Below are positions 686 to 47,539 of a stretch of 47,539 bases of DNA, piece by piece. Made by a program: the position numbers and the translations under genes. The notes beneath the pieces are model-generated. The model did no database searches, was not told the origin of the DNA, and saw only the letters and a list, made by a program, of their open reading frames with translations. This stretch comes from a virus: positions 1-47,539 of IMG/VR virus record IMGVR_UViG_3300025111_000005. One strand, given 5' to 3'. Within the stretch, counting starts at the first letter, position 1; each line of letters starts with the position of its first letter.

Positions 686-1380
686 ATAGTTGGGAATCCA
701 TATTTTGTTGCTAAATAATTATAAATAGCTGTCTCATCTCCTGAAGCATCAGCAATCCTTCTCATTATAATTTCCTTAACTTCTATATTAGAATAATTAG
801 TACCTGATCCATTTGCACCTAAAGTAAAGCCAGCCATGTTTCTTATACCAAAATTACCCGTAGCAGCTGCATCTGAATTAATTTGAAATTTACTGGATGC
901 ACCATTTAGTAATACTCGAATTATCCCAAATGTGTCAAGAGTTAAGTTTTTTTGAGCTGATCCTGCTCCTGCGTATACCTTCATTCCGGGAGTCGTTAGA
1001 TTTTGATATAACGTACCATAATCAGCTGAATTACCATCCCATATTCGATCTGCAATTGTCCATGTAATCTGTTTTAATACTGCATATATAAATGTTGGTT
1101 GATTAATAGTAAAAGTTGCAGTCTTCATAAAATTATCAATTCCATCGAATAATATACCTGTTGCGCTCCATAATGGCTGCTTAGTACCTGTTGCCTGAAT
1201 CAAATCATGTCCCGAACCTAACCTGTCATTCCACCTGCTGACAAAATTACTGCCATCTTTTGTAATTGTAGAGAGTAGTTGTGAATCATAAAAAGCAACT
1301 GTATTACCATCATCAAGAATAGCAGGATAACCAGCCCCGGCGGCAGCAGCATAAAACCCTATTGCGTGTCTTAGTCCCAT
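682..1380 (-). CDS. LamG/concanavalin-like tail appendage protein
   Basis: This 232-residue protein is rich in Gly, Ala, Asn, Thr and aromatic residues. It has the look of a LamG/concanavalin-A-like beta-sandwich: an early 'AFYDS' segment, a 'DGIDNFMKT' strand pair and a C-terminal 'IYNYLATKYGF' helix, an ending I associate with prokaryotic carbohydrate-binding LamG-like proteins. In the distal tail block it most likely forms part of a fibre or receptor-binding appendage. It overlaps its neighbours by 4 bases (downstream) and 1 base (upstream). The fold is inferred from composition and the C-terminal motif, not from an alignment. Confidence 0.6.
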   Translation of the reverse strand: MGLRHAIGFYAAAAGAGYPAILDDGNTVAFYDSQLLSTITKDGSNFVSRWNDRLGSGHDLIQATGTKQPLWSATGILFDGIDNFMKTATFTINQPTFIYAVLKQITWTIADRIWDGNSADYGTLYQNLTTPGMKVYAGAGSAQKNLTLDTFGIIRVLLNGASSKFQINSDAAATGNFGIRNMAGFTLGANGSGTNYSNIEVKEIIMRRIADASGDETAIYNYLATKYGFPTI

Positions 1381-2009
1381 TAGACTTTTTGAATAATTGT
1401 GTAAAGTATATCAGCCCCCGACTTCATCCAACTGATAAAATTATCAGCCGCCGTTGTTGCCACAATAGATGTACTACCCAGTTTCTTAGTGAACATTGTA
1501 CCCATTGTGATAGTATAACCTCCTGCTCCAGATATGATCAATTCAATTGATCCCGCATCACCATCAACGACTCCTGTAAGGTTTACTGTTGTATTAGCTG
1601 AAACAGTTACTTTGAAACTCTTGTACAATGTGCCATCAAGAGCCAAAGGGTCAGCGAAAGCAGGCGTTTGTATTGCTTCCGGAATTAGGATTAATGCTTT
1701 TGTTTCTGCCAGTGTTTTCTTAACGAAAGCCCCCGATCCTGATGCCACAATAAAGTCGTTGGCGGCTGTTGCCAGGGCATGGGTGACATAATCGGTCACT
1801 GCCGTGTAAGCTGCCGAGCCAAGCCCCAGAATAGTCTTCACCTGTGCAAGTGTTTTAACGAGCCAACTGAATGGAGTCGCATCACTAACAATAAAACTAC
1901 TTTCAGCAACTGCTGTCGGTTTTCCCGATATACCATCCCATGTTACACCATCTGAAATAGTAACTGCGATAGACTCTTCTGTTATCGCAACATTTATGTC
2001 GTCTGCCAT
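1380..2009 (-). CDS. Tail fibre / baseplate protein
   Basis: This 209-residue, Ala/Thr/Ser/Gly-rich protein has low charge. The N-terminal third (strand-like 'VAITEESIAVTISDG') resembles the linker of tail fibres. The phrase 'LALDGTLYKSFKVTVSANTTVNLTGVVDGD' and the remaining C-terminal half look like a beta-rich stem or tip domain. It lies between a BppU-like protein and a LamG-like protein and is coupled to both by 1-base overlaps, which fits an adsorption apparatus. The exact role (fibre shaft or tip) cannot be told from the sequence. Confidence 0.6.
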   Translation of the reverse strand: MADDINVAITEESIAVTISDGVTWDGISGKPTAVAESSFIVSDATPFSWLVKTLAQVKTILGLGSAAYTAVTDYVTHALATAANDFIVASGSGAFVKKTLAETKALILIPEAIQTPAFADPLALDGTLYKSFKVTVSANTTVNLTGVVDGDAGSIELIISGAGGYTITMGTMFTKKLGSTSIVATTAADNFISWMKSGADILYTIIQKV

Positions 2010-2359
2010 TATACTATACGTTTTGTTATAATCTCTACAATCTCACAAACCCCTTTTGTCGAATTGAGCTGAACCAGGGGACTATCATCATAAATTCTTA
2101 AATCCCAATTATAATCACCAAGTACAATATCTGTCTGTGACGCTGTAAGTGCTAATGTCGTAATACCCCCGCTGGCGTTAGTATGAGATATTATATCTTT
2201 TGTAATCACTGCCAAAGCATCATCACTACTATTATCAGTCGCTTTTTTAACAGTAAAAAATACAGTTTTCCCAGTAAGGTCGTAAGCATTGCCCGAAGCA
2301 TTTGTCACTGTTATTGTTGCGTTATATGGATTCCCTCTTTGTATAGTTATTGTTGCCAT
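2009..2359 (-). CDS. BppU N-domain-like baseplate protein
   Basis: The 116-residue protein begins 'ATITIQRGNPYNATITV' and continues 'YDLTGKTVFFTVKKATD', the pattern of the N-terminal Ig-like domain of BppU-type baseplate proteins, which attach receptor-binding proteins to the tail tip. The C-terminal part ('DYNWDLRIYDDSPLVQLNSTKGVCEI') fits the last strands of that domain. It stands at the head of a coupled group (2359 to 425) of likely adsorption genes. The assignment is by motif recognition. Confidence 0.6.
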   Translation of the reverse strand: MATITIQRGNPYNATITVTNASGNAYDLTGKTVFFTVKKATDNSSDDALAVITKDIISHTNASGGITTLALTASQTDIVLGDYNWDLRIYDDSPLVQLNSTKGVCEIVEIITKRIV

Positions 2360-2396
2360 AATTATAAATTATTACAAAGTGTTTCAGCATATCGCA

Positions 2397-2558
2397 TTAT
2401 GTATCTTCTTTTTTATCTCCTACTTCAATCTCCTGCGCCCTGCTTACTGCATCCAAAGCATCGGCGGCCACTTTGCTTTGCAAAAAAGAAACAGTAACAA
2501 TGGATAGTAAGTTAAGTATCTTCTGCCAGTCCGAAGGGTCAATTATTATTTTCTTCAT
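2397..2558 (-). CDS. Small hypothetical protein (53 aa)
   Basis: An ATG at 2558 opens a 53-codon frame ending in TAA at 2397. Its start overlaps the stop of the lipoprotein gene by 4 bases (ATGA), matching the coupled spacing of this genome, which is the main reason to accept so short a frame. The N-terminal half is amphipathic or mildly hydrophobic ('WQKILNLLSIVTVSFLQ') and the C-terminus is acidic and lysine-rich. No family was recognised. A small membrane-associated partner of the lipoprotein is possible. Confidence 0.55.
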   Translation of the reverse strand: MKKIIIDPSDWQKILNLLSIVTVSFLQSKVAADALDAVSRAQEIEVGDKKEDT

Positions 2559-2803
2559 TTCTCCTTGCATATAGTAATTGTTTGTGAATAATAAGGCCCG
2601 GCAGCTGCCTGTTTGATCACAACTGAGCTATGCTGCCTTTCATATTCCCGGACAGAAATAATACCAGTAATTTCGTACACCTCTGATGTTTCCAAAGTAG
2701 TACCAACTTCTTTGCGTGTCTCGCAAATGTAGCATTTGTCAGTCAGTTTCTCACAGCTGGCGAGAATGACAATCAAAAATAAAATACCTGCAATCTTTTT
2801 CAT
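2555..2803 (-). CDS. Phage-encoded lipoprotein
   Basis: The 82-residue product starts with a short type II signal peptide: Lys-Lys, a hydrophobic core 'IAGILFLIVI', then the lipobox 'LASC' with Cys17 as the lipidated residue. The residue after the Cys is Glu, and acidic residues just after the lipidated Cys are typical of surface-exported Bacteroidetes lipoproteins. A CxxC pair (CYIC) follows, then a short beta-rich body. Phage lipoproteins often act in superinfection exclusion or lysis, but nothing here decides between these. It sits between the large fibre protein and the small 53-residue gene. Confidence 0.75.
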   Translation of the reverse strand: MKKIAGILFLIVILASCEKLTDKCYICETRKEVGTTLETSEVYEITGIISVREYERQHSSVVIKQAAAGPYYSQTITICKEK

Positions 2804-2820
2804 CTTTTTTAATTGTAAAG

Positions 2821-4269
2821 TTACAAAACTAATCTGATATAAACTGTATAATCTGTATTTTGTGCCGTCTCTCCGATATTCGCAATATTGACAACGTTAT
2901 TATATTCTGCCCTCTGACCCGTTGCTGTTGCCCATCCCGACGAAGGATAAACCTGAGTTGCGCCACGTTTGATAATATATTCAATAGTTCCTCCGGAAGG
3001 TGGAAAGTCCCCGCCACCTGTAGGATTATAAGTGAAAGTCAAAGCAGTTGACCCGGCATAGCCCTGACTGACCGTTATATCCTGTGTAATTGAATTAGAA
3101 GTTACTCTAACAAGTCCATCCGGCGATCGTTCTAACACAGGATTAACATCACCGCTCTCACTCTGTATAGTATAGTCATAACTATCTGAAGCATCCTTAT
3201 AAACAGTCACAGAAGAAACGTCAGATATTGCAGCAGTTGTAACTCGTGTATTAAAACCACTGGTAACAAGACTACAATTAACCGGAGTACCCGCATCATT
3301 GCAGGACAGAGTTATCCAAGTCCCGCCGGTAATTACCGCCGCCGACCAATCAGGAGGACCACCGGCATAAGAACAATAGACTGTAACATCTTCTGACTCC
3401 CCGGCTGCACTGTGAACAAGTGCGTTACTACTTACTTTTAACCAATCTTTAATTGTAAATGAACCATTTGTGATATAAGTATTCGTCCCGTCAGTATCCC
3501 ATGTATCGGGGCTACCCCCATTTGCAATGCCTGTAAAAAATACAAGCAGTCCCGGAGAAATTGCTGTCCATGCTGCTGCTGCGCCAGAGCTTAGAATTAA
3601 TTGCCAGTCAACCGATCCTATATGATAAGGAAAGTTTGCAAATGCAGGAGATGTCGCCCAGTTAATTATCTCTGTACTTATTGAAATATTCCATGCTCCT
3701 GTAAAATCCAAATCTTTTACTTGTCCAAAAGTCTTATACCACGGCCCGCCGGTTGCGTTGATTTTTAATCCTACATAGTAATCATCTAAACTGCTGGCTG
3801 AAGGATATATATCCGATGGAAGGATTATAACTGAACTCGATGAACGGTGCGCCCTGCAATACCATCTTTGTAAATAAGGAGTGCCGGAAGGATAAAGATT
3901 TGCGTTCCATGCGTTATCAGTATCACGACATTGAATTGAAGGATATGCTAAAGTACGATCATGTTCATACCCCCGAAAGTCGCCAAGTCTTGCAGGTTCA
4001 TCAGGTGAACCGCCATCACTTCCACCTCTGGGTTGAAGATAATCCCACTTATCAGGATTTGAACCTGAGAAATTAAAGCCCCAGTAACCTACATCATCTT
4101 TGCCTCGTTCATATACAGTCGTTCCAATCCCGGCAGCTCTGACTGGTTTGTATTTTGACCAACGATTAATCAGCGATGATGTGCCAATGTTAAATAGCGA
4201 CCAATCAGCAGAATATCCAAGATTAGTCCTGACTGCGCTTAATGCCAAATTTGTAGTTGCCAGTGCCAT
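2821..4269 (-). CDS. Large tail fibre / appendage protein
   Basis: A 482-residue protein rich in Ser, Thr, Gly, Trp and Tyr and low in charge, typical of phage tail-tip or fibre proteins. The C-terminal 200 residues look like two Ig/BACON-like beta repeats ('VSSVTVYKDASDSYDYTI' and 'EYIIKRGATQVYPSSGW'). I set the start at ATG 4269 (MALATTNLAL), because the only in-frame upstream option is a TTG and the ATG lies one base after the stop of the small gene at 4271. It is the gene before the lipoprotein in the late transcript. The receptor-binding role is inferred from place and composition. Confidence 0.65.
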   Translation of the reverse strand: MALATTNLALSAVRTNLGYSADWSLFNIGTSSLINRWSKYKPVRAAGIGTTVYERGKDDVGYWGFNFSGSNPDKWDYLQPRGGSDGGSPDEPARLGDFRGYEHDRTLAYPSIQCRDTDNAWNANLYPSGTPYLQRWYCRAHRSSSSVIILPSDIYPSASSLDDYYVGLKINATGGPWYKTFGQVKDLDFTGAWNISISTEIINWATSPAFANFPYHIGSVDWQLILSSGAAAAWTAISPGLLVFFTGIANGGSPDTWDTDGTNTYITNGSFTIKDWLKVSSNALVHSAAGESEDVTVYCSYAGGPPDWSAAVITGGTWITLSCNDAGTPVNCSLVTSGFNTRVTTAAISDVSSVTVYKDASDSYDYTIQSESGDVNPVLERSPDGLVRVTSNSITQDITVSQGYAGSTALTFTYNPTGGGDFPPSGGTIEYIIKRGATQVYPSSGWATATGQRAEYNNVVNIANIGETAQNTDYTVYIRLVL

Positions 4270-19208: not shown

Positions 19209-19966
19209 GATATAAAGTTCCAGTCATTTAAAAAAACATCTGTTATCTCATTTGCAATAGTCCCGGAAAACCAAACAGCCGGAGCGCAAACAATTTTATT
19301 TGTATTTTCATTCAGGTATGCACCCCAACGGGAATAAGTCGAATTTGCTATTATATTGTGTGTGCATTTAGTCTGCAGGTAGAAATCAATGTAATCAGGG
19401 ACACCTTCGCTAAATATTACCCTTTGATCTTTAAATGTCTCTTTACACCAGGGGATGTCATCAGAGATAATATAAATATGGTCTATCTGAGTCTTTGAAT
19501 CCATAAAAGATAAAGCCTTTTTATAGTAATTTTCACCACAAATATGACTCGCATTTATAAGATAGTCACCCCTTCTGACGTGAAGCGAAACACTATTTAT
19601 AAAATCAAACTTTATACTTTCAAGCATCTCGTGATCTTTGAATAGTTCAATAATTTCCTTCCGGTATTTGTCGAAATATTTCTCACTTGAAAAGTACCCG
19701 CCGATCATTAGATTCATTTGGTAAGGAATAGGGTCATAATTATACCTTCGTTCCTGATAATATGCTTCTTGCTTCCAACCTGGCGGTAAATCTTTGAGCT
19801 TTCTGAAAACGTTATTCCGGTATGTTGATGGATAAACTCCCTGACTCAATGAACCCATATTAAGATTAAAGGCACACTCATCATTATTTTCGAGTGCAAG
19901 GGCGTAAGCGGCTGCTATTTGAAACATCCGTCCCCCTAAACCACCACATAACATTGCTGAAATCAT
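19205..19966 (-). CDS. GT11-like (alpha-1,2-fucosyl/colitosyltransferase family) glycosyltransferase
   Basis: The 253-residue protein shows the GT11 motifs in order: 'GGLGGRMFQIA' at 8-18 (family GGLGNQMFQYA), 'HVRRGDY' at 129-135 (the donor-binding HxRRGDY), 'YIISDDIPWCKETF' near 165, and 'NSTYSRWGAYL' near 222. The family transfers L-fucose from GDP-fucose in alpha-1,2 linkage, and at least one known member (E. coli O55 WbgN) transfers colitose. Because a ColD-like gene lies immediately upstream (4-base overlap), a 3,6-dideoxy donor is plausible here. It has no signal or membrane segment. Confidence 0.85.
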   Translation of the reverse strand: MISAMLCGGLGGRMFQIAAAYALALENNDECAFNLNMGSLSQGVYPSTYRNNVFRKLKDLPPGWKQEAYYQERRYNYDPIPYQMNLMIGGYFSSEKYFDKYRKEIIELFKDHEMLESIKFDFINSVSLHVRRGDYLINASHICGENYYKKALSFMDSKTQIDHIYIISDDIPWCKETFKDQRVIFSEGVPDYIDFYLQTKCTHNIIANSTYSRWGAYLNENTNKIVCAPAVWFSGTIANEITDVFLNDWNFIS

Positions 19967-21102
19967 CTGTTTAAAATTTCTATTATAAAGTCCATATCCT
20001 TTTCGCTTAAATCCTGATGATTAGGTAAATAAAAGCCAAATTTATGAATCAGATCAGCATTTGGATAGTTATAAGATCCGTGTTTTTTAATCCAAAAAGG
20101 CTGTTTCCCGATTGACCCCGCTATCAGTGGCCTGGTTACAACTCCATTTTCCTGCAGTTCCCTGACTATCCGGTCTTTTTTAATACTCACAACAGGATAG
20201 GCAAAATTTGAAATATAACCCCTTTCTTTAAGAGTCAGAATATTATCTTTGATATGTTTCAGGTAGTACCGAAAATTATAGTTTCTTTTTTTGGAAAACC
20301 GAGCGAGTTTATCCAATTGTCTGAGTCCGATAAATGCCTGTAGATCAGTTGACCTTAAATTAAGTCCCGGATAATAGAAAGTATAAAGAGAATTGAAATC
20401 TTCAACGTTCCACTTCTTTTTATGCCGCTGCGTTGTCTGGGCATCCCAATCACGATCCCATCCGTGGTTACGCATCGAAACAAGAAAGTTATATAATTCG
20501 GTGTCGCTTGTATTTATAAAACCTCCCTCAATTGTACTCAAATGATGCCCATAATACATGGAAAATACAGACGAATCGCCATACCGTCCCAGCATCTCAG
20601 CGCCAATACGTGAACCCATGCTCTCGCAGTTATCTTCAATTAATATAACATTAAATTCCTTGCATAGATTAACGATACTATCCATATCCGGGATTAATCC
20701 AAGGGGCGCAACGGAAATAAATATATCAGGCTTAAACTCGGCAAATATTTCTCTTAACTCTTTCAGGTCACATGACAGGTCCCTGAGATTGCAATCACAA
20801 AGCCGAACATCATAACCTAATAACATCGGAGAACTGACATCCGTGACCCAGCTCAATGCCGGAACCACTATCTTAGGATTATAACCAAGTATTTCCTTAT
20901 ATGCTGCCAAAAGCAAGAGAATACCTGACGATCCCGAATTGACAAAAACAGAATATTCAGTTCCGACCTTCTTTGCCCACTTAGATTCAAGTTCTTTTGT
21001 AAGGGGCCCTTTTGTTAGCTGTGGAATAGGGTCTTTTTGCAGCCATTCGATCAGTGCGTTGATATCTTCCCGGTCTATTGTATCACTTACAAGGTTTATC
21101 AT
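19963..21102 (-). CDS. ColD-like sugar 3-dehydratase (PLP/PMP, Lys replaced by His)
   Basis: This 379-residue DegT/DnrJ/EryC1-fold protein has 'FVNSGSSGILLLLAA' near 53, 'VILIEDNCESMGSRIG' near 152 with the PLP-contacting Asp, and 'SMYYGHHLSTIEGGF' at 181-195. The residue that is the Schiff-base Lys in aminotransferases is His186. ColD, GDP-4-keto-6-deoxymannose 3-dehydratase, has His188 in the same 'GHH-STIEGG' context and length near 388. The likely reaction is removal of the C3 hydroxyl of a GDP-4-keto-6-deoxyhexose, an intermediate shared with GDP-fucose synthesis. Neighbours are a fucosyltransferase-like gene and a transketolase half. The identity of the sugar is inferred. Confidence 0.8.
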   Translation of the reverse strand: MINLVSDTIDREDINALIEWLQKDPIPQLTKGPLTKELESKWAKKVGTEYSVFVNSGSSGILLLLAAYKEILGYNPKIVVPALSWVTDVSSPMLLGYDVRLCDCNLRDLSCDLKELREIFAEFKPDIFISVAPLGLIPDMDSIVNLCKEFNVILIEDNCESMGSRIGAEMLGRYGDSSVFSMYYGHHLSTIEGGFINTSDTELYNFLVSMRNHGWDRDWDAQTTQRHKKKWNVEDFNSLYTFYYPGLNLRSTDLQAFIGLRQLDKLARFSKKRNYNFRYYLKHIKDNILTLKERGYISNFAYPVVSIKKDRIVRELQENGVVTRPLIAGSIGKQPFWIKKHGSYNYPNADLIHKFGFYLPNHQDLSEKDMDFIIEILNR

Positions 21103-24395: not shown

Positions 24396-25673
24396 TTAAA
24401 ATTTCTTTACAACTTTTTCAATGTATTCAAATATTTCACCTCCATAATGCGGCGCAGCTCCAATAAAAAATACTTTATCGAGTACTTTGTTTGCCTCTGG
24501 ATAGTTTCTGTAATCATCATGAAAAGCGTAACCGGGATGCATCAGAATATTACCTGTAAAATAATTCCTTGTCTGGATGAGGTGTTTTTCAAGGTGTGCG
24601 ACTAACTTATTTTTTAATCCGTCCTCGCAAATAAAAGGAGTCCCAAACCAACAAACATCAGCCCTGCCTAATGTCTGAACCCCATGCACTCCTGGAATCT
24701 TACTTACAATTTTCTCTATTATTGTTTTTGAATGTTTTCGCCGGGCCTCAATCTCTGTAAATTTGTCGAGCTGGACCAATCCTATTGCACCCTGTAAATC
24801 AAGTGGTTTAAGATTATATCCCATGTTTGAAAATACGTATTTATGATCGACAATCCCGTCATAAGCTTCGAGCCATTTATCAAACCGGTGGCCGCATGAT
24901 CCTTTCAGTAACATATTATCTGAACCGATACAATTACAATCCCGTCCCCAATGAGCTATACTTGTCATAATTTCCATCAGGCCTTTATCATTAGTACTGA
25001 TCATACCTCCTTCCCCGGTACATAGTGTATGCGCGGCATAAAATGAACAGGATGAAGCGATACTATATTCATTCAGGTATTTCCCGTTCCACTTTGTCCC
25101 CAGAGAATCGCAGTTATCCAGGATCGGTTTCAATCCATACACATCACATAAATACAAGAGTCGGTCAATGTCCGGCGGATTACCAAGTACAGGACTTAAG
25201 AATATCGCTTTGGTACGATATCCTATCTTTGATTCAATTTGATCTAAGTCAAAATTCAGGGTGTTCCATTCAATATCTACAAATACCGGGTTGAGCCTAT
25301 TTTGATAAAGCACAGATATTGTTGTCGGAAATCCAACTGATGAAACAATAACCTCATCTCCGTCCTGCCAGTTATAATATTTTTTTAGAGCGGCAATCAT
25401 AACCAAATTAGCCGATGATCCAGAATTGACCATTAAAGAATAACCAGAATTAAATTTCCTACTGAATGCCTTTTCAAAAACATTAACCTGGCCGCCTGAT
25501 GAAATCCACGTACCGTTAAGGAATGTATTTATTGCCGCTTCACTTTCTTTATTGTCCCAGTATGGACCGGAATAAGGAATGACAGTTTTACCTGGTTTGA
25601 AGTTCACAGAATTATAAAGATATGGTGCAACATGATTGCCAACTAAAGATTCTATTTTATCAGGTAATATCAT
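24396..25673 (-). CDS. E1/RfbH-like CDP-4-keto-6-deoxyglucose 3-dehydrase
   Basis: A 425-residue DegT-fold protein. The PLP lysine is replaced by His215 ('SFYAAHTLCTGEGG', 210-223), as His220 in Yersinia E1. Four cysteines follow the E1 iron-sulfur spacing: Cys188-X57-Cys246-X-Cys248, with Cys260 11 residues further on (7 in E1). Asp189 follows Cys188 as in E1. E1 uses PMP and a [2Fe-2S] centre, with a reductase (E3), to remove the C3 hydroxyl of a CDP-4-keto-6-deoxyhexose. No E3 gene lies in the window, so the host may supply electrons. It overlaps the GT2 gene by 4 bases. The CDP specificity is inferred from family. Confidence 0.8.
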   Translation of the reverse strand: MILPDKIESLVGNHVAPYLYNSVNFKPGKTVIPYSGPYWDNKESEAAINTFLNGTWISSGGQVNVFEKAFSRKFNSGYSLMVNSGSSANLVMIAALKKYYNWQDGDEVIVSSVGFPTTISVLYQNRLNPVFVDIEWNTLNFDLDQIESKIGYRTKAIFLSPVLGNPPDIDRLLYLCDVYGLKPILDNCDSLGTKWNGKYLNEYSIASSCSFYAAHTLCTGEGGMISTNDKGLMEIMTSIAHWGRDCNCIGSDNMLLKGSCGHRFDKWLEAYDGIVDHKYVFSNMGYNLKPLDLQGAIGLVQLDKFTEIEARRKHSKTIIEKIVSKIPGVHGVQTLGRADVCWFGTPFICEDGLKNKLVAHLEKHLIQTRNYFTGNILMHPGYAFHDDYRNYPEANKVLDKVFFIGAAPHYGGEIFEYIEKVVKKF

Positions 25674-29384: not shown

Positions 29385-30839
29385 TTACAAATTATCATTT
29401 TCTGACCCGGAAAGCTCCGCCGTGGCATCTGCTTTCATACGCTCCATCTCTACTTTTGAATCTTTAACCAAAGGATTCTTTTCTATTGCTGTTTCTTTTG
29501 ACATTATCCCTCCTGTGACAGCTACCGATAAATTATCAATAATTTCCGTTGTGTTCATTGGAAGGTAAGGTGTAACCTCAGGCTTCAATTGAACTGTCCT
29601 GCATTCACTTGCCAGCGAAGTGTCGATTAGAGCTCCTATGGCCGCCTTGATGATATTTAACCGCCTTTGAAGTCCTATCCCGAACGTTTCCTCTTCCATG
29701 CGAACTGCCATATGCGGATCTGAGAAAATCATTTCTGCTGCAAATCCTGACATCTGGCCTATTGTCATCATTTGGTCAAATGATATGTTCGGAGTCTGCG
29801 ACATTGCATGAATGAACTTTTCAAGATTCGTCTGCTCCAGGCTTATCGACTGCGGCTCTGAGGCTAAATTAGCGTAACCGGCCGTTGCCCCGTTCTCGAG
29901 TTGCATAACTGACCCCTGAGCGTTGTCAATTATCTCGCCCTGGATTTCACCGGCCACGGTGAAGATAGGCGCCCCGAACTTATCGTTCATCCCGCCGTGA
30001 TTCGAAGTCAATGTTTCGTGACGGTCAATCATTGACTGCACGTTATGCCATACCGGTTTTTTCTGATTGTAGTATTCAACTAGAATCTTCTTTGCGGGAT
30101 TCGGGACCGGATTAGCGGGGATATAGTCGCCTGTCTCCACTGATTTGCCAATTGCATCAGGATCAAGTGTCCACTGGCCATCTTTTTTGATGTACTTGTA
30201 AGTAAATTCAGCAGTGTAAATATCCGAATGCTCAATATCTTTGCCGTTCTCGGATAACTTATAATCCCTGCGAAATGATATCATCGTTCCGTTACTGTCA
30301 AACAGTGGGTAAAGAGTGTCACCAAGTTCCGGGGAGACAATCTTGCTGTTTAGTGTAAACTTGTATTTTGGATCATTCGTTTCAACATAATACCAAATAA
30401 CAGCGACTTCCAGCTCAGACAACTTCCGGCGCAGGATCTCTTTATTCTTGTAATCCATTTTATTGTCGTTCTGGATCCTCTCTACCAACTTAACAAGCTG
30501 TTTTTCTTTTTCGCTTTCAGTATCCCATATTACATTTGTTTTAACAGGATGCGAAAGTGTGAACCCGACCCGGCGTTCTGTGATTATGTTCTGCCAGGGA
30601 ATGCCGACTCTCACAACATCTATCCACTTATCGGTCCAGTTAACATTACCTGCAGAGTCTTTTGTGCCTGAATCAATTTTGATCTTACGCATTGGCCGGA
30701 TAGCCTTATCAAAGACATCATGAGTATCGACATTGTACTGTTTAATAGCATCTGCCTGAACCCCGGTATCAACCTGGCGGGTGAATAGCTTATCAATCGC
30801 TTTAAAGTCCTGTGATTTAATTACGTCAAGTGCTGCCAT
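29385..30839 (-). CDS. Portal protein (SPP1 gp6-like)
   Basis: The 484-residue protein follows TerL, as portals do. It shows the gp6 pattern: N-terminal helices, 'IPWQNIITERRVGFTLSHPV' (about 80-99), 'EVAVIWYYVETND' (about 147-159), 'MIDRHETLTSNHGGMNDKFG' (about 273-292), then a long C-terminal helix region 'FIHAMSQTPNISFDQM'. It forms the dodecameric DNA channel at one capsid vertex. The length fits the family. The next gene is a glycosyltransferase rather than the usual MuF-like gene. Confidence 0.85.
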   Translation of the reverse strand: MAALDVIKSQDFKAIDKLFTRQVDTGVQADAIKQYNVDTHDVFDKAIRPMRKIKIDSGTKDSAGNVNWTDKWIDVVRVGIPWQNIITERRVGFTLSHPVKTNVIWDTESEKEKQLVKLVERIQNDNKMDYKNKEILRRKLSELEVAVIWYYVETNDPKYKFTLNSKIVSPELGDTLYPLFDSNGTMISFRRDYKLSENGKDIEHSDIYTAEFTYKYIKKDGQWTLDPDAIGKSVETGDYIPANPVPNPAKKILVEYYNQKKPVWHNVQSMIDRHETLTSNHGGMNDKFGAPIFTVAGEIQGEIIDNAQGSVMQLENGATAGYANLASEPQSISLEQTNLEKFIHAMSQTPNISFDQMMTIGQMSGFAAEMIFSDPHMAVRMEEETFGIGLQRRLNIIKAAIGALIDTSLASECRTVQLKPEVTPYLPMNTTEIIDNLSVAVTGGIMSKETAIEKNPLVKDSKVEMERMKADATAELSGSENDNL

Positions 30840-30859
30840 ATCTTTTTGTGTAAAGTTAT

Positions 30860-32845
30860 TTAAATTTTTCCTAACAGGCTTGAAAGGTTTGTTTTTTTAC
30901 GATTATGTCCGATAACCTCTTCTAGAATCACATAACGCCCTGCGTCAATACTGTTATGTACTAATATGCCATTTGCGAAATATTCATGCACTCCTTCGAC
31001 GTGGATATCGAATACCTGCATCTTTTCGCCTTTTACGCAATGCTTTTGCTTTACAGTTTGGATGACAGTATTTTGATATTCCTGAATGTCTTGTTTGATA
31101 TTCTCTTCCGCAAAATTGACAGATAAGCGTTTTTTGTCCTTTATCCTTCCATCCTTCTTTACTATGTTCTGAGTGCCATTCTCTTCCTTCTTTTGAACCA
31201 TGCCATTCTTTTGCTTTTTCAATACCCGCATTATGAAATTTATCAAACCATTCTTTGTCTCGCGAAAACCGCGACTTCCCATGTTCTGACAAATGCTGAT
31301 GCTTTTCTTTAATTTCAATATTTTCGGGTTGATTATCCCATGTATTTTCGTTTTTATGATGAACAGTAAACCCCTTAGGAACTTTGCCATTATAAAATTC
31401 CCAGACTGCGACATGCATCCGTTTTGTTCCTCTTGAAAAGTATCGTTCTCTTGGATAAAGTCTGTATGTTTTCCCATTAAATGTTTGCTCAGGAATACCT
31501 GCATCCCCGATTCTAATTGTGAAATCTGTTCCCATCCTTGCGTTGTTTTAATTAAATGATCTTCTGTACAATGCAAAGATAATGAAAACATATCGAATTG
31601 TATCGAATAGTTATTAACTTGTTTTAATCCATTATGATATAATTTTATAACCCGACTAAATCCTTCCGAAGTTAAAACATCATCAGATGTTTTTATATCA
31701 CAAATATTTTTTATTCCTTCTTTCGTAATTATTTTAGTATCTGAAACAAAACAGTGATTAAACTCATCAACTGGCTGGTTAAGATATCTACCTTCCTTAT
31801 CCTGATCATAAACGTAATTATCTATTTCCTTCTTAATATTAGTCGACCTCTTGGTGATTTTGAGATTATACTCTTTCATCTTTGCCAGCCCGGCATTGAT
31901 TGATCCCTGAAACTTTTCAACCGCATGGATATTTAACCCTGCATTATGTATCTCATCTATTAGTCTGGGGTCTGCACTTTCAGAAATAATCTTTTTATTT
32001 TGACATTCTGATTTTAAGACTTTAATAATATCATTTGTCAACATTTTAGTTCGGTAACAAATTTCATCCATATATAAATCCTCACCATCTATTGCCACGT
32101 TCAAAATTGCAGTAGGATCATTTGTGTAACCGAAGTCCATACCTACCCATCGCTTGCGGATATGTTCCGGTATTCCTTCCACAATCTCATAATCATCAAA
32201 AATCCGCCCTTCGATAACAGCCCGGAGTCCTAATCCGTAAACAGTCCAAAGAGATTTATTCTTACCTTGTAACTTCTCAATATCATCAATAATTTTCTGC
32301 TCCAGAAATGGATTATCATTATAGGTTGAAATAAAATGATAACAGTCCGGGTCTTTATTTACTGATTCAATCCAATGATCTTCTGAAAATGAAGGGTTGT
32401 AATCCAAAACAGCAAAGAGTGTGGTTCTCATTATAAGCTGCTGCCATTCCAGGTAACTTAATTCATTCGCTTCATTGGCAAATAAGATTCCACGTTTACG
32501 ACCTCTGATCTTCTGTTCATCATCAGTTGAAAAGAACTCGACCCAAGAGCCATTATTAAATTTATAAATCAGTTCTGTTTTATTGAACTGTTTATCATTC
32601 CAAATATCCATCTTAAAAAGAATCTCTTTGAAGTCAATCAGGACTGATCCTTTAAGCGCCGGTAATGTTTTACGGACAATAGATAGCCGGGTGTTATTGT
32701 GTTCAAGAATATATGTAATCAGAAATATTAAGATATTAACCGTTTTCCCTGATCGGGATGAACCTTGAAGAGAAAGAATCGTTTTACTTTCAGCAAGTCC
32801 CTTAATAAGTCCTTTATAAACCTTACTTGCTACTTGTATCTTCAT
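30860..32845 (-). CDS. terL: Terminase large subunit interrupted by an intein
   Basis: The 661-residue frame is a large terminase split by an intein. Walker A is 'QGSSRSGKT' (27-35), Walker B is 'GILFANEAN' (119-127), and the nuclease acidic residues are in 'GMDFGYTNDPTA' (235-246) and 'ESADPRLIDE' (289-298). The intein runs from Cys365 to Asn631: block A 'CFVSDTKI', block B 'CTEDHLI' (426-432), block F 'VFDIHVEGVHEYF' and block G 'GILVHN' with Ser632 as +1 residue. Splicing gives a 394-residue TerL joining 'DEFNH' to 'SIDAGRY', the site of the last catalytic Asp. Between blocks B and F the frame overlaps an HNH gene in another frame. Confidence 0.9.
   Translation of the reverse strand: MKIQVASKVYKGLIKGLAESKTILSLQGSSRSGKTVNILIFLITYILEHNNTRLSIVRKTLPALKGSVLIDFKEILFKMDIWNDKQFNKTELIYKFNNGSWVEFFSTDDEQKIRGRKRGILFANEANELSYLEWQQLIMRTTLFAVLDYNPSFSEDHWIESVNKDPDCYHFISTYNDNPFLEQKIIDDIEKLQGKNKSLWTVYGLGLRAVIEGRIFDDYEIVEGIPEHIRKRWVGMDFGYTNDPTAILNVAIDGEDLYMDEICYRTKMLTNDIIKVLKSECQNKKIISESADPRLIDEIHNAGLNIHAVEKFQGSINAGLAKMKEYNLKITKRSTNIKKEIDNYVYDQDKEGRYLNQPVDEFNHCFVSDTKIITKEGIKNICDIKTSDDVLTSEGFSRVIKLYHNGLKQVNNYSIQFDMFSLSLHCTEDHLIKTTQGWEQISQLESGMQVFLSKHLMGKHTDFIQENDTFQEEQNGCMSQSGNFIMAKFLRGLLFIIKTKIHGIINPKILKLKKSISICQNMGSRGFRETKNGLINFIMRVLKKQKNGMVQKKEENGTQNIVKKDGRIKDKKRLSVNFAEENIKQDIQEYQNTVIQTVKQKHCVKGEKMQVFDIHVEGVHEYFANGILVHNSIDAGRYVILEEVIGHNRKKTNLSSLLGKI
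30984..31535 (-). CDS. HNH homing endonuclease nested in the terL intein in an alternate frame
   Basis: This 183-residue frame is shifted by -1 against terL and lies wholly within the intein coding sequence. It starts at the third base of codon 437, just after block B, and stops inside codon 621 in block F. It has an HNH core 'KGFTVHHKNENTWDNQPENIEI' (about 54-75) with His-His and Asn, a linker 'IEKAKEWHGSKEGREWHSEH', and a zinc finger 'CQFCGREY...YCHPNCKAKA'. This is the nuclease type usually found in frame inside inteins. Here it has its own ATG preceded by GCAAGG. It probably makes intein homing possible. Confidence 0.85.
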   Translation of the reverse strand: MGTDFTIRIGDAGIPEQTFNGKTYRLYPRERYFSRGTKRMHVAVWEFYNGKVPKGFTVHHKNENTWDNQPENIEIKEKHQHLSEHGKSRFSRDKEWFDKFHNAGIEKAKEWHGSKEGREWHSEHSKEGWKDKGQKTLICQFCGREYQTRHSGISKYCHPNCKAKALRKRRKDAGIRYPRRRSA

Positions 32846-33203
32846 GTTCTACTTTATCCGAGTTGTCTATAAGTTCAATCAGAATTGAAGTGTTTAAGTT
32901 CTGATCATTCGTTGTAATGTCATTTTTATCCTTCTGTTCAAGATATTGTTTTCCAAGCCAAACAAGCATTGTTTTATCTCCATCCATAGCAACTTGATAC
33001 TGCTTGCCCCTGAGTAGCTCCTTGCCCTCTCCTTTCTTTTGTGCGGAATAGGCTTCAAAATTGACTTTATATTTCTCCTCACAAGCCCTGTAAAGTGTAA
33101 TTGGCGCAATCCCCAATAACCCAGCAATACCAGTCCCGTTACATTGAGCTTGCAGATATTTATCAACCTTATTCCAGTCTATTATTGCACGGGGACGAGA
33201 CAT
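32823..33203 (-). CDS. terS: Terminase small subunit
   Basis: The 126-residue protein lies just upstream of TerL (23-base overlap). Its N-terminal half is a DNA-binding HTH of small-terminase type: 'DWNKVDKYLQAQCNGTGIAGLLGIAPITLYRACEEKY' (9-45), with helix-turn-helix 'GTGIAGLLGIAPITLYRA'. The rest is a helical oligomerisation part ('GKQYQVAMDGDKTMLVWLGKQYLEQ') and an acidic tail. Recognition of the packaging site is the expected role. Confidence 0.8.
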   Translation of the reverse strand: MSRPRAIIDWNKVDKYLQAQCNGTGIAGLLGIAPITLYRACEEKYKVNFEAYSAQKKGEGKELLRGKQYQVAMDGDKTMLVWLGKQYLEQKDKNDITTNDQNLNTSILIELIDNSDKVEHEDTSSK

Positions 33204-33775
33204 CTCTTATTATTTTTATTAAATAGGTTTTCTTTTAAAGTTATTTCTTTATGACAGTCTTTACATAAAGTAACACCGTTATTAATATCCCAAATAGGAC
33301 TATAAATCAATGCTGCATCAAATATTTTTAAACTTGGAAATGTTTCTTTTGCCTCATCAATTAATATTGATAATGCCTTTTTATGATGTACCTCAAATTC
33401 ATGCGGTTTAGAAAGTCTACATTCACAGCATATAAAATTATCCCTTTTAAAAACAGATAACCTCCAATCGTTATATTTCTGTGATGATCTTATTGCTTGT
33501 GATATTGGCGTTATTCCACCCTTACTCCAATGATGTTTCCCTTCCTGTACCAATCTTAATTGTGCTTTTGACATTCTTAATTTTTGTTCTTCACTCCTGT
33601 GTTTTCCTGTTAATACTTTACTTCGTTTTGATCTTGATTCCTTTGTCTGTTTGGTTCCGGTTAATTGTTTGACATAACAATCATGACAACAATATTTAGG
33701 CAATCTGCTCTTACATCCATGATTGGAATAAAACTTTTTTCCACAATTCAAACAATTATATTTTATTCGTGCCAT
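33182..33775 (-). CDS. Free-standing HNH homing endonuclease
   Basis: This 197-residue protein has an N-terminal Cys-rich finger ('YNCLNCGKKFYSNHG', 'YCCHDC'), basic linkers, and a C-terminal HNH domain: 'DNFICCECRLSKPHEFEVHHKKAL' (about 129-152), then 'WDINNGVTLCKDCHKEITLK' with the Asn and second His of HNH. Another finger in the same frame ('YCKECQREYF') lies just upstream of the ATG, so the gene or its ancestor extended further. The stop overlaps the TerS start by 22 bases. Upstream is a fragment of a ParB-like gene that it seems to have interrupted. Confidence 0.85.
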   Translation of the reverse strand: MARIKYNCLNCGKKFYSNHGCKSRLPKYCCHDCYVKQLTGTKQTKESRSKRSKVLTGKHRSEEQKLRMSKAQLRLVQEGKHHWSKGGITPISQAIRSSQKYNDWRLSVFKRDNFICCECRLSKPHEFEVHHKKALSILIDEAKETFPSLKIFDAALIYSPIWDINNGVTLCKDCHKEITLKENLFNKNNKRCLVPVQ

Positions 33776-46335: not shown

Positions 46336-47046
46336 CTATTTTATAACTGCAATACCAACGGCAGCCGCTGACACTCCAAGAAGTACCTTATTCCAAAACC
46401 CTTTCCGATTAATCTGCCTATTTAAAATCGTAATTTCTTTATCGTAGTTCTTAATCTGCAAATCAGCCTTCAAAATATTGTTCTGTAAACCTGTAATCTG
46501 AGAATTAAGATTCAAAATTCCTTTTTCGTAACCTGTATTTAATCCGATACAGCTTTCAAGACTATTCCCCTGAAGTGAGTATTCCTGCTGAATCATATCT
46601 AAGGAAATAGATGTAGAATAGATTTGTCCTACCTGGAAGCCACTGAAAGGATATTTAAGTATCTCACTGTCATAATTTGGAAAGCGTGCCTGTAAACGTA
46701 CATAGATAGTATCAGAAGGTATCTTTGAAAGCTCGGATAACTCTTTAGCGTGTTCTTTTTTCAGGATAACAAGTGCTACCTGGTATTTTTCGAGTACTTT
46801 CTTTAGTGAATCATTCCGAGTCCTGATGACTTTATAGTCTATCTGATGTTTTATAACCTGACTTTGAAGTTCGATCCGGTCACCGTTTAAGCTTAAATTA
46901 CTTTGTTCAATAGTGACTATCCGCTCAGTCTGCTTTTTGATTGTCCTGTTTTTGACAGTAAGAATCAGAAGCAAAAAGATAATTGCACCGATCAGGATGA
47001 CATACTTAATATTCTTTTTTAAGAAGTCAATGATTTTTGCTTTCAT
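46336..47046 (-). CDS. Spanin-like inner-membrane coiled-coil protein
   Basis: The 236-residue protein has an N-terminal membrane anchor ('NIKYVILIGAIIFLLLIL', about 12-29), then a long coiled coil (about 33-105), a middle domain with 'LQARFPNYDSEILKYPFSGF', and a second coiled coil (170-215) before a C-terminal hydrophobic stretch ('VLLGVSAAAVGIAVI'). Rz-type inner spanins are membrane-anchored coiled coils that bridge the periplasm at lysis, and this could be one, though it is longer than usual. The HNH-AP2 gene upstream overlaps it by 20 bases. No endolysin gene is visible beside it. Confidence 0.55.
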   Translation of the reverse strand: MKAKIIDFLKKNIKYVILIGAIIFLLLILTVKNRTIKKQTERIVTIEQSNLSLNGDRIELQSQVIKHQIDYKVIRTRNDSLKKVLEKYQVALVILKKEHAKELSELSKIPSDTIYVRLQARFPNYDSEILKYPFSGFQVGQIYSTSISLDMIQQEYSLQGNSLESCIGLNTGYEKGILNLNSQITGLQNNILKADLQIKNYDKEITILNRQINRKGFWNKVLLGVSAAAVGIAVIK

Positions 47047-47539
47047 TTAACTTTCGTTTTGAAATTATATTTAAAACTGCAAATTCTCCATAATATTTTT
47101 TTGCTCCATTATTATATGCAATAGCAGCCTCAATTTCTGTTCTAAATTCACCTAAATATATAGATTTACTATTACATATAATAACTGCTTGATAGCTTTC
47201 TGGTCTTGTTTTTTGTATTGTTTCTCCTTTTGCATTAATATATTTATAAAATGGATACCTTTTCCGAACTCCTTTATACTCTCTTCCTTTTTGAACTTTC
47301 TTATTCCATGTATTTTGTCTTTTGGTACAAATTCTAAGATTTATTTTTTGATTATTTAGTCCATTACGATCAATATGGTCAATAGATTGTGCAAAGCTAC
47401 AATTCATAATTTCACGATGCATGAGTATTTTCTTTCTTATACCATTGATTCTGATACTTCTTCTTGCATATAAATTACCACAACTATACTTTGATTCATG
47501 TAAATGCCATTTAAATTGATTTATTCTTTCATAATCTTC
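47027..47539 (-). CDS. HNH-AP2 homing endonuclease (cut by window edge)
   Basis: The frame is open from base 47539 to the stop at 47027 (170 codons in the window). It has an N-terminal strand 'NLYARRSIRINGIRKKILMHREIM' (about residues 23-46 of this piece), the HNH core 'IDHIDRNGLNNQKINLRIC', and a C-terminal AP2-type domain ('YKGVRKRYPFYKYI', 'YLGEFRTEIEAAIAYNNGAKKYYGEFAVLN', given by position only for the rest). HNH-AP2 proteins are mobile endonucleases of phages. If the window is circular, the start is ATG at 22-24, giving 'MKNLTNREEDYERINQFKW' at the N-terminus. Confidence 0.85.
   Translation of the reverse strand, partial: EDYERINQFKWHLHESKYSCGNLYARRSIRINGIRKKILMHREIMNCSFAQSIDHIDRNGLNNQKINLRICTKRQNTWNKKVQKGREYKGVRKRYPFYKYINAKGETIQKTRPESYQAVIICNSKSIYLGEFRTEIEAAIAYNNGAKKYYGEFAVLNIISKRKLNESKNH

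Follow-up and report, generated by a model that had tools for sequence, protein, structure and literature searches.

The terL gene of virus record IMGVR_UViG_3300025111_000005 contains a predicted intein, and a complete HNH endonuclease gene lies out of frame inside it. The window analyzed here is the whole stretch of 47,539 nucleotides of this record. The preferred reading, to which a probability of roughly 0.8 is assigned, is that the window carries a mobile TerL intein whose endonuclease slot between blocks B and F holds an independently translated, out-of-frame HNH homing gene. The layout of the window is one case of a widespread architecture.

The locus would work as follows. Ribosomes reading terL would cross the HNH gene in the frame of the intein, a frame that is kept free of stops but is not conserved in sequence. 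Judging from the intact blocks and the fold, the precursor would splice like a mini-intein with a floppy insert. Other ribosomes would initiate at an ATG within a Gly-Trp codon pair and produce a 21-kDa HNH protein, as start-codon conservation and protein-level selection suggest. This protein may cut intein-free terL alleles, and repair would then copy intein and HNH gene as one unit, a step to which the distribution points. Related lineages have the HNH gene at the other offset, have it between two halves of a split intein, or lack it, and a second HNH family shows this layout at another TerL site.

Features of the terL locus

The coordinates of the features are summarized in Table 1. The terL product matches the Pfam families Terminase_3, Terminase_3C and Intein_splicing, the last one below the curated cut-off. 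The insert interrupts the conserved motif NH|(C/S)xDAxRY (the bar marks the insertion point) in the C-terminal (nuclease) domain of TerL, with Ser632 as the +1 residue. It has the features of a class 1 intein: the block A nucleophile at position 1 is Cys365, which is invariant in 34 aligned inteins; the TxxH of block B is T427-E-D-H430; and the terminal His-Asn is followed by Ser (VHN|S), with a match to NCBIfam intein_Cterm (TIGR01443, E=4e-7). In the AF2 model, intein residues 1-90 and about 231-268 reach pLDDT 85-95 and the two halves form a Hint domain, for which the best Foldseek match is the gp41-1 intein (TMt 0.81, rmsd 2.3). The AF2 model contains no confident fold for the intein-frame insert between them (mostly below 62). 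The insertion is precise, and intein-free alleles exist (L130-L138, N-extein 76-90% identical to the window where measured). On sequence and modelled fold the insert thus qualifies as an intein, and protein splicing is predicted. The initial annotation had identified terL residues 365-631 as an intein in which blocks A, B, F and G are intact, and the motifs, the NCBIfam match and the Hint model at both ends agree with it. The precursor is one ORF in the window, not two as in split inteins or fractured genes, and Rfam models, searched up to E=1 over 30700-33000, gave no match, including to a group I intron RNA core.

Table 1. Features of the terL locus and its neighbors in the window
Feature	Position	Strand	Remarks
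Portal gene	29385-30839		Neighbor of terL
terL precursor (N-extein + intein + C-extein)	30860..32845	(-)	Single open frame, 661 codons/661 aa
Intein, predicted (terL residues 365-631)	30953..31753	(-)	Based on alignments, AF2 and Foldseek
Intein block A (CFVSDTKIITKEG)	31715..31753	(-)	C1, F2, T6 and G13 invariant among 34 aligned inteins
Intein block B, LHCTEDHLIKT (TxxH)	31544..31576	(-)	Intein T63 and H66 invariant
Nested HNH endonuclease gene	30984..31535	(-)	183 codons + stop; offset 2 relative to terL, which occupies the HNH +1 frame
HNH start ATG	31533..31535	(-)	Made by intein codons GGA-TGG (Gly437-Trp438); begins at third base of codon 437
HNH core read in the intein frame (terL residues 455-594)	31064..31483	(-)	Open spacer; AF2 mostly pLDDT 28-62
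Intein blocks F + G with splice junction (VFDIHVEGVHEYFANGILVHN|S)	30950..31015	(-)	Block F overlapped by the HNH C-terminus
HNH stop TGA	30984..30986	(-)	Spans His620-Glu621 (CAT GAA) of block F
terS, probable	32823-33203		By position only

The product of the nested gene matches Pfam HNH_3 (E=7e-13). Residues H41, H59, H60, N68, N72, H81, C139, C142, C157 and C161 are invariant, so the HNH motif and the zinc-ribbon cysteines are intact. The AF2 model of the protein has a mean pLDDT of 90.9. The nearest solved HNH structure by both sequence and fold is I-HmuI, although the match is weak. By its sequence the protein qualifies as an HNH endonuclease selected for function, and its homing activity is putative. 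A canonical full-length intein has its endonuclease in the frame of the splicing domain; that of the window is at offset 2. The ORF analysis reproduces the complete out-of-frame gene described initially, from the third base of codon 437 to codon 620/621 within an open intein frame. It was further proposed that nuclease and splicing domain are encoded separately within the same DNA, and this is supported.

Openness of the intein frame

Stops in the intein frame were counted against a null obtained by shuffling the synonymous codons of each HNH core while the protein and its codon usage stayed constant; this null relies on each gene's own codon usage and is therefore conservative. Among 90 non-redundant HNH genes the +1 frame is stop-free in 70, against 5.4 expected, and the +2 frame in seven, against 0.0 expected. 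In the six non-redundant nested genes of the NUMOD type, for which the null predicts 11.5-16.9 stops, there are 0, and the stops of their free-standing relatives agree with the null.

The codon composition of the HNH gene might by itself leave the +1 frame poor in stops, in which case the intein frame would be open by chance. The window taken alone (L010, identical) would allow this: 1.43 stops are expected in its HNH core and 11% of the shuffles are stop-free (P about 0.11), and in these HNH genes far fewer stops are expected in the +1 than in the +2 frame. The family as a whole makes chance extremely improbable, given the 70 open genes, the +2-frame cases in which 5-17 stops are expected and none occurs, and the 13 free or split HNH genes serving as controls, which carry stops at about the expected number. 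That the intein frame is kept open by selection is supported, with a signal that is overwhelming only across the family. The initial judgment that chance openness is unlikely therefore holds for the family but not for the window alone.

Selection on the two frames

In the HNH core, at 65-80% HNH identity, codon divergence falls from position 3 to position 1 to position 2 (0.44, 0.24 and 0.20), a pattern that indicates purifying selection on the HNH protein. At the same level of HNH identity the amino acid identity of the core is 0.44 in the intein frame and 0.43 in the unused third frame; the overlapping intein stretch is therefore merely kept open, with no selection on its sequence. The first HNH codons overlap the GWxxIxxLxxG stretch of the intein, and there the pattern is reversed. 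The intein frame is the more conserved one, and position 3 (0.373) diverges less than positions 1 (0.541) and 2 (0.570), compared with 0.562 for position 3 in the core. The selected frame thus switches to the intein inside the end of the gene.

True dual coding, in which the HNH protein and the intein-frame insert would both be functional and both be under amino acid selection, fits the dual constraint in the short end overlaps and HNH third positions that are slightly less divergent when the gene is nested (0.527, against 0.598 for the control genes, at 50-65% identity). It is very unlikely in view of the core, where the intein frame equals the third frame, the insert without a confident AF2 fold, and the existence of mini-inteins that are entirely without the insert. 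True dual constraint is limited to the short end overlaps. The codon-position rates in both frames of homologous TerL inteins, proposed initially as a check, reveal the selection on the HNH protein, and they do not bear out the claim that the DNA must satisfy two proteins throughout.

Proposed translation of the nested gene

The codon before the overlapping Trp ends in A in 60 of 69 non-redundant nested loci, and the Gly of the start Gly-Trp pair is GGA in 44 of 52 loci, while across these ORFs GGA makes up 34% of all Gly codons (P about 6e-14). At other Gly-Trp sites, used as a control, GGA occurs in 19 of 48 cases (40%), and the A before the Trp is present in only one of five mini-inteins. 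The exceptions among the nested loci belong to clades whose HNH gene starts further downstream, where the start is less certain. Selection for an ATG within the Gly-Trp codons argues for initiation at that ATG. At the other end, the HNH stop of relatives often lies across Y-D, V-E or H-E of block F.

In the clade of the window, the nested ATG has no Shine-Dalgarno site ahead of it. An apparent excess of such sites in other clades was discarded, being inflated by the choice among several starts. Bacteroidota often lack a Shine-Dalgarno site. The nearest relatives of the window's portal protein are mostly from phages of Bacteroidota.

A second possible route to the HNH protein is programmed ribosomal frameshifting out of terL, which would yield a TerL-IntN-HNH fusion and dispense with a start of its own. 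The offset, which is nearly constant per clade, is compatible with it. A stop in the HNH frame usually lies 12-18 nt ahead of the ATG and leaves little room for slipping, the ATG is preserved by codon choice, and the HNH genes of split relatives begin at an ATG with GGAGG-type sites. Frameshifting is accordingly considered quite unlikely, and initiation at the Gly-Trp ATG is preferred.

Distribution of the layout

A tblastn search of annotated phages detected HNH relatives within terL inteins of four phages: a gut phage, a Rhodobacteraceae phage, and the isolated phages Highwayman (Acinetobacter) and TJE1 (Tetrasphaera). All are at offset 2. In the three of these records that are annotated, terL alone is marked there and the HNH gene was missed. 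Free-standing HNH homologues occur between terL and the portal gene in L003 and L007-L009. In IMG/VR, 108 entries are nested at offset 2 and 10 at offset 1, counts that include near-identical copies and four GenBank phages; the loci are not independent counts, and the searches that collected them favor close relatives. None of these IMG/VR loci (108 at offset 2 and 10 at offset 1) contains an in-frame fusion of intein and HNH.

A second sample was blind to the HNH gene, as it was picked only by blocks F/G and the C-extein. It comprised 75 inteins at this TerL site, 68 with a nested HNH gene and 7 mini-inteins of 130-137 aa, with three truncated contigs besides. None of the 75 TerL inteins in this sample carries an in-frame nuclease. 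The search for intein precursors that overlap an HNH frame in the B-F region, recommended in the initial annotation, thus found them in more than 100 virus contigs.

These numbers bear on the possibility that two compensating frameshifts, real or introduced by sequencing, broke an in-frame intein-HNH fusion and left the HNH gene out of frame by accident. Inteins with an HNH domain in frame do occur; the dCTP deaminase of cyanophage CL131 contains a self-excising one (PMC6293099). Accidental frameshifts would have to account for more than 100 loci from unrelated assemblies that share one offset with none in frame, for two frames that stay open across loci of only 40-50% identity, and for a second HNH family at the other offset. 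They have next to no probability, and for the family this main alternative of the initial annotation is ruled out.

Members of the second HNH family, which looks NUMOD-like by eye, occur in L042 and L245-L260, nested at offset 1 within an intein that interrupts the P-loop of TerL (GGSR|C...HN|SGKT). In L042 the NUMOD-like HNH gene lies at 1571-2173 within an ORF at 1288-4158. The second family and the split versions show that the layout recurs. Among GTDB contigs the layout was found in Bacteroides, Prevotella, Parabacteroides, Nitrospiraceae, Gammaproteobacteria and a Thermoplasmatales archaeon. The last case (L226, CP070724.1, a metagenome-assembled genome) is a nested-HNH TerL intein on a contig assigned to the archaeal chromosome, which may be a provirus or mis-binned. 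A contig assigned to Ca. Methanimicrococcus (L225) has a TerL intein with a nested HNH gene whose intein frame contains one in-frame TAG (L225:4473-4475); this codon could be read as pyrrolysine in that lineage or mark a split point. In L081 (1155-4373) one TerL ORF of 1073 codons contains two inteins, and a separate out-of-frame HNH gene is nested in each of them (2144-2782 and 3464-4102).

Probable mobility, split forms and mini-inteins

Between the window and L094 the N-exteins are 27% identical, the N-terminal halves of the inteins 74%, and the HNH proteins 64%. Intein similarity is correlated with HNH similarity more strongly than TerL similarity accounts for (partial Spearman 0.50 against 0.27). 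The HNH tree requires 18 changes among nested, other-offset, split and free states, and at least five for the main nested label when only well-supported branches are used; it is a quick tree in which gain and loss are indistinguishable.

Full, split and mini intein states coexist around one TerL site. In L056, L063, L069, L070 and L088 the TerL intein is split, and an HNH gene belonging to the family of the window separates the TerL-IntN ORF from the IntC-TerL ORF; as read from their ORFs, these are new candidate natural split inteins. In several of the split forms IntC is preceded by a Shine-Dalgarno-like site or starts at an ATGA overlap. It had also been proposed that the HNH gene can be lost without breaking the splicing domain, and the natural mini-inteins of 130-137 aa support this.

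The HNH protein could instead be a packaging cofactor of TerL, like the HNH proteins encoded beside terminase genes, and not a homing enzyme. Such a role would suit the free-standing homologues between terL and the portal gene, and HNH roles with terminases have been noted (PMC11855218). It is unlikely, since TerLs up to 90% identical have neither intein nor HNH gene, which makes the HNH protein dispensable, since the intein-HNH unit moves between TerLs of only 27% identity, and since the HNH gene occupies the homing slot of the intein. A homing role of the nested gene is preferred.

A 13-bp exact direct repeat (GATGCAGGTATTC) at 31010-31022 and 31493-31505 flanks the HNH core in one intein-frame register, and removal of the segment between would leave an intein of 106 aa. 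It was rejected as a target-site duplication, as other loci have no clear excess of such repeats and natural mini-inteins measure 130-137 aa; the repeat itself is absent from relatives. It probably reflects two similar motifs, GxxVF and xxVFD.

Comparison with known systems

In textbook inteins the homing endonuclease and the intein belong to a single polypeptide. In the family of the window, nuclease and intein share DNA but not protein, in a common and essential phage gene, and annotation misses the nuclease. In fractured genes (Dassa et al., 2009) the intein is reportedly split, and a free-standing endonuclease gene lies between its two parts. They resemble the window in having an independent endonuclease gene at the intein break, and gp41-1 is the best structural match; in the window, by contrast, the intein is contiguous and overlapped out of frame by the endonuclease gene. 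Group I introns of the I-HmuI type likewise have an endonuclease gene independent of the host frame. They are removed at the RNA level, whereas the window has no Rfam match and its host frame is open.

The canonical endonuclease inteins, such as those of CL131 and of mycobacteriophage TerL, share with the window the Hint domain, the endonuclease between blocks B and F, horizontal spread, and TerL as a host. Their endonuclease is part of the precursor, whereas that of the window is a separate overlapping gene whose intein-frame copy is a spacer. The mycobacteriophage TerL inteins lie in the ATPase domain, unlike that of the window in the nuclease domain, and those tested carry LAGLIDADG endonucleases (PMC5050341).

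The nearest published case is the ShiLan domain (Arsenault, Gosselin and Gogarten 2025, PMC11855218), an out-of-frame HNH gene in a non-splicing phage insertion. Both it and the window have an HNH protein with zinc-finger-like cysteines, out of frame in a host gene that stays open, and for both a disjunct distribution is seen and homing is proposed. The ShiLan domain has no intein splicing blocks and is predicted to be retained in its host protein, one methylase, as an insert of 202 aa. In the family of the window the insert is itself an intein, with its blocks intact and a Hint fold, found in many TerLs and in two frames. A literature search found no out-of-frame endonuclease gene within inteins; priority is uncertain, and a related actinophage-intein preprint ('Non-Canonical Architecture', Gosselin et al. 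2025, 10.1101/2025.01.02.630785) and Gorbalenya 1998 lie outside this comparison. The initial statement that no class with this layout had been described is nearly right, but an out-of-frame HNH gene had been published with the ShiLan domain in 2025.

Nested-frame inteins probably form a class of mobile element that is widespread and undescribed, occurring in bacterial and likely also archaeal phages, with at least two origins, as there are two HNH families, two offsets and two or more TerL sites. In this class the splicing and homing genes would share DNA, frame selection would be handed over at the Gly-Trp and block F codons, and the elements could become split inteins or mini-inteins. Decay of the nuclease is decoupled from splicing, and a plausible path connects the full, split and mini-inteins found side by side at one site. 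If true, turnover into split inteins would suggest where natural split inteins originate. The family is also a large natural set for measuring the tolerance of overlapping genes, with openness selected in one frame, sequence in the other, and sharp handover points. Seemingly orphan linker regions of inteins may hide genes.

Neighboring genes

Besides the nested gene, the (-) strand of the window has two more HNH endonuclease genes, at 33182-33775 immediately upstream of the probable terS and at 47027-47539 at the contig end. Two aminotransferase genes of the DegT/DnrJ/EryC1/StrS family (19963-21102 and 24396-25673, both on the (-) strand) lie between the capsid and portal genes, and this pair is an unusual cargo for a phage of this size.
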